From Candidatus Blackburnbacteria bacterium (lineage in GTDB: Bacteria > Patescibacteriota > Microgenomatia > UBA8517 > UBA10165), in assembly GCA_016183565.1 (NCBI GenBank), contig JACPEJ010000004.1:1-41177 (forward strand): DNA of 41,177 nucleotides. Direction: 5' to 3'. The position numbers and the translations under genes are program-made. The first letter of the stretch is position 1. Every line of letters starts with the position of its first letter. Shown piece after piece: positions 38,549 to 40,274 of the stretch. The notes beneath the pieces were generated by a model, which had not been told where the DNA came from, did no database searches, and saw nothing but the letters and a program-made list of their open reading frames with translations.

Positions 38549-38574
38549 GAAAAAAGGCTCTCTAATAGAGAGCC
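38549..38574 (-). terminator. Terminator of the intron-containing tRNA gene
   Basis: On the minus strand the perfect stem GGCTCTC/GAGAGCC with loop TATTA-type is followed by TTTTTTCTTCC. It starts about 23 nt after the tRNA 3' end. A second hairpin with a TGTGAAC/GTTCACA stem follows at 38512-38528. Confidence 0.8.
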
Positions 38575-38596: not shown

Positions 38597-38885
38597 TTGC
38601 GGGGCCGGGAGTCGCGCCCGGCCTAGGAGATTATGTAATCTGTAATCTCCAATTACTTGGAGTGTCGCACCATCTCATGTACGTTCATTTAAGAACGCAC
38701 CTTGGCGTATGGTGTCTACGGAGTCCCAAGCGACCTCGCCCTGAGCGATAGTCAAAGGGTTCCCTCGGGATTGCCCTAACAGATGAAAGGGTTTCCCCGA
38801 TATAGCCAAGTGCGCACCCTAACGTTACCGCTAGGGGGGCCCATACTTCATTTGAGCCTCCTGTGCAACTCTACACTACCCCGCA
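38597..38885 (-). tRNA. Initiator-like tRNA-Met (CAU) interrupted by a group I intron
   Basis: On the minus strand the exons are 38885-38855 and about 38635-38597. The acceptor stem is TGCGGGG/CCCCGCA with discriminator A, matching bacterial initiator tRNA (xGCGGGG/CCCCGCA). Joining after U33 gives the anticodon loop CTCATAA with stem GGAGG/TCTCC, variable loop TAGG and T stem CCGGG/CCCGG. Oddities are a T-loop CGCGACT instead of TTCRANN, a 6-nt D-loop without G18-G19, and no run of three G-C pairs in the anticodon stem. CCA is not encoded. It could be a diverged functional tRNA or a degenerate copy. Confidence 0.7.
38636..38854 (-). ncRNA. Group I intron in the anticodon loop
   Basis: The paired elements occur in group I order on the minus strand. 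P2 is CCCTAGCG-GTAA-CGTTAGGG (38836-38817). P3 is CGCACTTGGC with GCCAAGGTGCG. The P4/P5 region contains GGGCAATCCCGAG. P7 is ACACCAT with ATGGTG, P8 is GTTC/GAAC inside P3-P7, and P9 is CTCCAA-GTAA-TTGGAG. Two GNRA tetraloops are present. P1 can form between exon GGCU and intron GGCC with a U-G pair at the 5' splice site. The 3' boundary is uncertain within a GATTACA duplication. The intron is about 219 nt and has no ORF. Confidence 0.75.
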
Positions 38886-38941
38886 TGTTTGAGTACACTT
38901 CTATTTTACCATTTATTCATCCCCAGAGCAAGCAACAACAC

Positions 38942-38979
38942 TTGACACAGAAATACGCGATGACGTATAACTGTGTCAG
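38942..38979 (+). repeat. 38-bp TTGACACAG palindrome, copy d
   Basis: Arms TTGACACAGAAATACG and CGTATAACTGTGTCAG surround a GATGA-type centre. It lies 25 bp upstream of the PaaX/Cas2-fold gene; copy e lies just after that gene. Confidence 0.8.
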
Positions 38980-39004
38980 ATATATATTTAGGATATTTGG
39001 TGTT

Positions 39005-39589
39005 ATGCGCAAGAAACTAATAAAACTATCCCCTACTACAAAAAAGGTATTGCTGCTTGTGGGAATTGGGGCTTTCATAGCAGGGACCCTTGTTTTGCCT
39101 GGTTTGCCGCGTATATTACAAGGAAAGAGGTTCAATTTTGACGGTTTTTTAGAAGAAGATGAGTGGGAGGAGTTTGACGAGCGCAGACTGAGGCAAAAGC
39201 TCAAGGCGCTGCACGATGCTAAACTTGTAAAAATATACCAGTCAGGAGAACAATACACAATTCAGCTAACCAAAAAAGGCAAAAGGCATCTACTTAGGTA
39301 TAAGATTACAGAGTTGTCTATACCACAACCAAAGGAGTGGGATAGAAAATGGAGGATTGTTGCTTACGATGTGCCTAAAGAAAATACTCGAGCCAGAGAT
39401 GCATTGAGACACATGCTTCGAAAATTGGGCTTTTACCAGCTTCAAAAGAGTGTGTATCTTTATCCATACCCGTGCGAAGATGCCATAGAGTTCCTGAGGG
39501 AAGTTTATGGTGTAGGAGAACATGTAACGCTTTTAACGGTCGGATACCTTGAGAACGAAGAGGCGTACAGAGATTACTTTAATATATAA
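39005..39589 (+). CDS. PaaX/Cas2-fold protein with N-terminal hydrophobic segment
   Basis: This is a 194-aa protein from the ATG at 39005 (GATATT ends 7 nt before it). The order is a hydrophobic helix (VLLLVGIGAFIAGTLVLPGL), a winged-helix-like part (RRLRQKLKALHDAKLVKIYQ, TIQLTKKGKRHLLRY) and a ferredoxin-like domain WRIVAYDVPKENTRARDALR followed by KLGFYQLQKSVYLYPY. The last domain resembles Cas2 and the C-terminal domain of PaaX regulators. No CRISPR array or other cas genes are visible, so a regulator or nuclease outside CRISPR is more likely. It is flanked on both sides by 38-bp palindromes. Confidence 0.75.
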   Translation: MRKKLIKLSPTTKKVLLLVGIGAFIAGTLVLPGLPRILQGKRFNFDGFLEEDEWEEFDERRLRQKLKALHDAKLVKIYQSGEQYTIQLTKKGKRHLLRYKITELSIPQPKEWDRKWRIVAYDVPKENTRARDALRHMLRKLGFYQLQKSVYLYPYPCEDAIEFLREVYGVGEHVTLLTVGYLENEEAYRDYFNI

Positions 39590-39721: not shown

Positions 39722-39793
39722 GGCTGGGTAGCTCAATGGCGGAGCAGGCGCTTCATACGCGCAAGGTTGAGAGTTCAAGTCTCTCCCCAGCCA
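39722..39793 (+). tRNA. tRNA-Met (CAU)
   Basis: This is a complete cloverleaf: acceptor GGCTGGG/CCCAGCC, D arm GCTC/GAGC with GG in the loop, anticodon arm GGCGC-TTCATAC-GCGCA (first pair G-A mismatched), variable AGGTT and T arm GAGAG-TTCAAGT-CTCTC. The anticodon is CAU with discriminator A. CCA is not encoded. It lacks initiator features, so it is elongator Met or a tRNA-Ile2 needing lysidine. Confidence 0.92.
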
Positions 39794-39827
39794 CACTTCG
39801 ACAAGCTCAGTGTAAACACTCTTAAAT

Positions 39828-40229
39828 TCAGGGCAAAGATTTTTCGAGTTCGGGCACGAAGAATGCCAGCCAGCGCCTCCAGATAGGCAAGATTTCCAAA
39901 AAGAGCTCCTCTGAATCTTCTCTCGGGGCAAGTTTTTTTAAAACATCTTCTGAGGGCAAAACCACAATGGTTTCGTCCGGTCGGGCTAATCCGAGCTTCT
40001 CTCGGGCTTCGCGCTCAACAAATCCCGGCGAATTTATGCTCTTTTTTGCCTCCAGAAGGACCTGTTGCTCGCGTTCGGCCTCAGCAAGTCTTTTCTTTGC
40101 TTCTTCTATGGCATTTCCCTTCCCCCAAAGTTGGGTTGTAGAATGCACGGCTGAAATAGTTGCCAGGACCACCAGAACTATAAGGATGCGTCCTTTAAAA
40201 AACTTGAGTAGTGATATGGGCAATTTCAT
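39828..40229 (-). CDS. DivIC/FtsB-like septum formation protein
   Basis: This is a 133-aa protein from the ATG at 40229; a TTG eight codons upstream is an alternative. A single transmembrane helix (GRILIVLVVLATISAVHS) is followed by a coiled coil (NAIEEAKKRLAEAEREQQVL) and the DivIC/FtsB-type INSPGFVEREAREKLGLARP with DETIVVLP. Such proteins link early and late divisome components. The gene is divergent from the recombinase gene across the 38-bp tandem repeats. Confidence 0.85.
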   Translation of the reverse strand: MKLPISLLKFFKGRILIVLVVLATISAVHSTTQLWGKGNAIEEAKKRLAEAEREQQVLLEAKKSINSPGFVEREAREKLGLARPDETIVVLPSEDVLKKLAPREDSEELFLEILPIWRRWLAFFVPELEKSLP

Positions 40230-40274
40230 GGGTTGGATATTATGGTGTTGCAAATGTGGATAGTTTATGATAAT

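Follow-up and report, generated by a model that had tools for sequence, protein, structure and literature searches.

The initiator tRNA-Met gene at 38597-38885 on the minus strand of the window (the whole stretch of DNA that was analysed, 41,177 nucleotides) carries a group I intron of 219 nt directly after U33. In this intron, the guanosine-binding base pair of helix P7 is reversed, and the terminal guanosine (omega-G) is replaced by an adenosine. Judged from these sequence features, it is quite probably a natural adenosine- or ATP-dependent group I intron, the specificity of which was switched from guanosine. The identity of the split tRNA and of the intron is as good as certain. The intron would be active, with adenosine as its putative cofactor and ATP as the presumed cellular form; this reading is based on one assembly.

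Architecture of the split initiator tRNA gene

With introns allowed, ARAGORN reports a tRNA-Met (cat) at c[38596,38885] that is interrupted at position 33 by an intron of 219 nt; run without the intron option, it did not list the split tRNA-Met of the window. The Rfam model RF00028 (Intron_gpI) matches positions 38646-38864 over all 253 model positions (1-253) with E=3.8e-10. The score of 44.9 bits falls under the curated cut-off, the gathering score of 50, so that the intron is not listed by Rfam at the default threshold. The initial annotation had proposed a group I intron in an initiator-like tRNA-Met gene, with tRNA exons on both sides of a 219-nt region at 38597-38885 of the minus strand. 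The covariance search that it called for yielded the RF00028 match, the intron-aware tRNA search found both exons at these coordinates, and the orthologues without intron join the exons exactly, which supports that proposal.

All parts of the gene lie on the minus strand. The 5' exon (38855-38885), as delimited by ARAGORN and by the shape common to intronless and intron-bearing orthologues, consists of U1, the acceptor strand GCGGGG, U8 and A9, the D arm GUGU-AGAGUU-GCAC, the anticodon 5' stem GGAGG, C32 and U33. The intron (38636-38854) starts with CAAAUG after U33 and ends with GAUUA; it is exactly missing from the intronless orthologues. The 3' exon (38597-38635), placed by ARAGORN, the sequence itself and the intronless orthologues, consists of CAUAA (anticodon C34-A35-U36, A37 and A38), UCUCC, the variable loop, the T arm CCGGG-CGCGACU-CCCGG, CCCCGC, A72 and A73. 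Once the exons are joined, the CAU anticodon stands in a CUCAUAA loop, as looked for in an initiator tRNA.

A search of 95 related genomes returned two types of relatives, those with intronless genes and those whose genes contain, at this site, an intron of about 180-255 nt. In the intronless orthologues (L023, L026, L029, L032 and others), which ARAGORN recognises as tRNA-Met(cat), the two exons follow each other without a gap, as GGAGGCU-CA-UAAUCUCC. Their exon junction, between CU and CAUAA, fixes the splice product of the window gene as the canonical initiator loop CUCAUAA. Splicing after C34 or A35 is permitted by the CA repeat of the window, but these registers are ruled out by introns of relatives that do not start with CA (for example L011). 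According to a pattern scan, the intron family is carried by 52 of the 374 class genomes sampled, including the window genome. The orthologous introns of the same class (for example L008, L009 and L012) share the insertion after U33, the P1-P10 architecture and the splice product, whereas they keep G264-C311 and omega-G where the window intron has C264-G311 and omega-A.

Position 1:72, which is unpaired in initiator tRNAs, is a possible U1-A72 pair in the window, against C1.A72 in many relatives; T is found at position 1 in 29 genes and C in 22. The three G-C pairs 29-31:39-41 that are usual in bacterial initiators are missing, with A29-U41, G30-C40 and G31.U39 instead (38861-38857 with 38630-38626, minus strand). 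According to pair counts this holds for 45 of 45 initiator genes, and it is therefore regarded as a trait of the lineage. The same AU/GC/GU combination replaces the three G-C pairs in Mycoplasma initiator tRNAs, which, unlike the window tRNA, have no intron. The D/T-loop contact 18:55 (38870-38869 with 38615-38614, minus strand) is G18-U55 in nearly all tRNAs. In the 51 initiator genes of the class (orthologues in L008-L099), it covaries perfectly, as A18-G55 in 26 (window included), G18-U55 in 20 and G18-C55 in 5, and no mixed state was found among them. The D loop of these initiator tRNAs is just 5-7 nt long. Downstream of the tRNA, a hairpin resembling an intrinsic terminator, GGCUCUCUAUUAGAGAGCC followed by a U run (38556-38574, minus strand), was recognised by consensus match only.

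Fold of the intron

Helices P1 to P10 can all be drawn without mismatch in the window intron. Across the 45 intron-bearing orthologues, standard pairs make up 89.6% of the pair cells. None of 500 shuffles reaches the observed value of any of the five measures used, and every slid control is lower. P2, P3, P7, P8 and P9 had been noticed from the sequence in the order of a group I intron. All of them form, together with P4, P5, P6 and P10, and their covariation exceeds that of the 500 shuffles. The pseudoknotted P3/P7 core with P4-P6 and P8, by which group I introns are recognised, is thus present and supported by covariation.

P1 (38838-38858, minus strand like all the helices) pairs the exon bases GGCU and the adjoining C (38858-38854) with the internal guide GGGCC (38842-38838) and is 96.9% paired. 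The U-G pair suggested by the initial annotation at U33 proved general, a U33.G wobble being present at the 5' splice site in 45/45 genes. The guide strand of P10, UAUG (38842-38845), pairs with CAUA of the 3' exon (38635-38632), as deduced from pair counts; the two pairs adjoining the splice site (C-G and A-U) are kept in 45/45 genes. P2 (38817-38836) and P8 (38679-38700) are hairpins in which 8/8 pairs display changes on both sides, with 74.9 and 74.4% of cells paired, respectively. P3, the strands of which (38810-38805 and 38706-38701) enclose P4, P5 and P6, is 99.6% paired with five covarying pairs. P4 (38800-38795/38770-38765) is 100% paired, as is the P9 hairpin (38647-38662), with four covarying pairs. 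The two GNRA loops reported initially are the GUAA loops of P2 and P9.

Altered nucleoside-binding site

In group I introns, the G264-C311 pair of P7 (Tetrahymena numbering) recognises both the exogenous guanosine and omega-G; it is described as completely conserved, and its change to C264-G311 as abolishing guanosine recognition (PMC5192423). The base triple of G264-C311 with the terminal G has been established by structure (PMC10020454). The initial annotation was right that the initiator tRNA gene holds a group I intron but had missed that both this pair and omega-G are replaced.

Among 44 orthologous split genes, 99 alignment columns are near-invariant. The window intron deviates at exactly five of them: G264C, C311G, omega-G to A, and the compensatory pair U267C/A308G. 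P7 is numbered in the standard way, with pair 262-312, the bulged A263, then pairs 264-311, 265-310 and so on. As placed by the alignment and pair counts, its strands on the minus strand of the window are GACACCA (262-268, 38710-38716) and UGGUGC (307-312, 38667-38672), versus GAGACUA and UAGUCC in the relatives. The nucleoside-binding pair is formed by a C at 38714 and a G at 38668, where 44/44 aligned relatives have G and C, respectively. Pair 267-308 changes from U-A to C-G (C267 at 38711, G308 at 38671), and both changes in P7 keep pairing. The last intron base, at 38636, is A instead of the G found in 44/44 aligned relatives; every intron of the relatives has a G before CAUAAUCU. Owing to the C264-G311 pair and omega-A, which stand in place of the guanosine-binding pair and terminal omega-G of group I introns, the intron is regarded as a derived variant of group I introns and not as an ordinary member. 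J8/7 of the window intron has a G at 305, which is also found in L013, where P7 is normal.

An alternative omega-G was considered at ACAG, four bases upstream, and rejected on two grounds: AUUA would then remain behind in the anticodon loop, and ACAG also occurs in many relatives whose omega-G comes further down.

If five of the 99 columns were changed at random, the chance of hitting 264, 311 and omega would be C(96,2)/C(99,5), about 6e-5, or about 2e-6 when the particular bases are also required. G264, C311 and omega-G were found in 42/42 other introns in which all three sites were read. In pattern scans, G264/C311 was found in 51/51 other introns of the class (374 genomes) and 13/13 other introns of the phylum (380 genomes, some shared with the class set). 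No carrier of the flipped P7 besides the window genome was found in either the 374 class genomes or the 380 phylum genomes. The scan of genome contigs for the flipped-P7 pattern gave two chance matches (L067 and L068) without intron. That of viral contigs gave 29 + 1 matches, and inspection of the sequences placed none of them within an intron; one (L178) was also checked against Rfam. To the extent covered by the genomes scanned and the readable literature, the coupled C264-G311/omega-A state thus appears to be unprecedented in nature.

Probable splicing with adenosine and alternative explanations

The same combination has reportedly been engineered. Been and Perrotta (Science 1991, a study cited in PMC5192423 and PMC9971707) are said to have converted the Tetrahymena intron to adenosine with a double mutant of the 264-311 pair together with omega-A. 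The double mutant of the pair reportedly preferred adenosine or ATP in the first step and stalled at exon ligation, a defect that a G to A change at the 3' splice site reportedly rescued. With its flipped 264-311 pair and an A as its last base, the window intron resembles this construct. It differs in being natural instead of engineered, in residing in an initiator tRNA instead of rRNA, and in the additional compensatory change of a P7 pair. On the strength of the three altered sites, it is likely to be the first group I intron from nature to use adenosine (ATP) in place of guanosine, by the same three-site switch as that engineered in 1991. As it sits in the sole readable initiator tRNA gene, maturation of that tRNA may depend on the supply of ATP.

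In the proposed mechanism, an adenosine nucleotide from solution would dock on C264-G311 of P7 and attack the 5' splice site after U33, marked by the U.G pair of P1; ATP, being the most abundant, is the most plausible candidate. The terminal omega-A would then occupy the same P7 pocket, aligned by P10. Attack of U33 on the bond between omega-A and C34 would join the exons and form the CUCAUAA initiator loop.

It is unlikely that guanosine (or water) is still used for the first step in an altered binding mode, with omega-A merely accommodated in the second step after a structural change. Hydrolysis at the 3' site is a further reaction of which group I introns are capable, and the change of the second P7 pair (267-308) hints at wider remodelling. 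However, no alternative register of P7 was found that puts a G-C pair at the site. In addition, a single pocket serves both steps (PMC5192423), which, together with the coupled change of omega, argues for a changed specificity.

It is also improbable, and a little more so, that the intron is heading to inactivity, the omega-A and P7 changes amounting to a loss of function while the tRNA comes from another gene copy or is poorly matured. Omega-G and G264-C311 are otherwise invariant, alteration of the 264-311 pair alone destroys guanosine-dependent splicing (PMC5192423), and 8% of the assembly is unreadable. Under decay, however, 94 of 99 conserved columns would not have stayed intact while two base pairs changed in a compensatory manner along with a functionally coupled third site. 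An intact initiator tRNA gene elsewhere, which according to the initial annotation would have spoken against the proposal if the split gene were untranscribed, was looked for. None was found in the 92% of the genome that can be read (the other 8% of the assembly, 74.7 kb, being N), and BLAST detected a single initiator locus in the genome.

It is very unlikely that these positions reflect a chimera or an artefact of sequencing or assembly. One assembly is concerned, and the 16S fragment of the contig shares 85% identity with the 16S of contig C1, so that the bin may not be fully pure. Errors, however, would be needed at both partners in two base pairs, which lie about 40 nt apart, and at omega, with none at any other conserved site. 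The locus is also interior to a contig of 127 kb, and its gene order is conserved. Coordinated changes that preserve pairing disfavour both decay and sequencing error.

Since the 1980s, group I introns have been taken to share a universal guanosine site, and the switch to adenosine is described in the literature as "not observed in nature". A natural C264-G311/omega-A intron, if confirmed, would be evidence that a change to adenosine is within reach of evolution, and structural studies of how RNA recognises nucleotides would gain a second specificity. It would also be a natural ribozyme specific for ATP as a substrate, a capability noted as not exploited (PMC9971707). As the intron gates the sole readable initiator tRNA gene, splicing as a sensor of nucleotide supply becomes a testable idea.

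What is novel is the altered P7 pair and omega-A inside the intron, the intron family being already known in kind. Small group I introns are found in the anticodon loops of cyanobacterial tRNA-fMet and tRNA-Leu, which resemble the window intron in this respect but have the canonical guanosine site and omega-G and another tRNA architecture. Group I introns in tRNA genes of Patescibacteria have already been reported, by a 2025 preprint as cited in PMC12641178. The presence of the intron is therefore not new in itself, contrary to the earlier suggestion of a new case or lineage. Annotation practice places intron ends at omega-G (e.g. PMC8208691), and such annotation, together with the Rfam thresholds, could hide introns like that of the window.

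Genomic setting

The initiator gene is accompanied by an elongator tRNA-Met(CAU) gene (39722-39794, plus strand), detected by tRNA scan, and by a DivIC/FtsB-like gene (39828-40253, minus strand; Pfam PF04977, E=1.5e-10), which lies beside the tRNA in many relatives. This neighbourhood recurs in relatives, and the locus is therefore regarded as the standard initiator locus of the class. Because the gene is apparently the sole copy and its neighbourhood is conserved, splicing is probably essential and strong selection is expected. The product of an upstream divergent ORF (38783-39589, plus strand) is PaaX-like and has a Cas2-like domain (PF20803, E=1.1e-22).

The window genome amounts to 885 kb. 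Contigs C2 and C3 are complementary in their tRNAs, those for Thr, Tyr, Trp and Met being on C2 only, and are similar in composition (GC 0.419 and 0.410), so that the argument for a sole initiator gene rests on these two contigs. A 16S fragment at 1-925 of the window (minus strand) shares only 85% identity, over 547 nt, with the 16S of contig C1, which may be foreign (misbinned) or hold a divergent second copy or operon. C1 carries a second tRNA-His(gtg), and its 16S and 23S rRNA genes (C1:35651-47552) contain several group I introns with the canonical G264-C311 pair. Lineage-specific loss of the ribosomal proteins uL1 and bL9 has been noted (PMC12641178); bL9 was not found in the window genome and uL1 is present. 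Together with the genome size and the rRNA introns of C1, this suggests a member of the Microgenomatia within Patescibacteria/CPR. The same genome contains, at C3:55005-55319 (L001), a tRNA-Asn(GTT) gene split by a 242-nt group I intron with the canonical guanosine pair.
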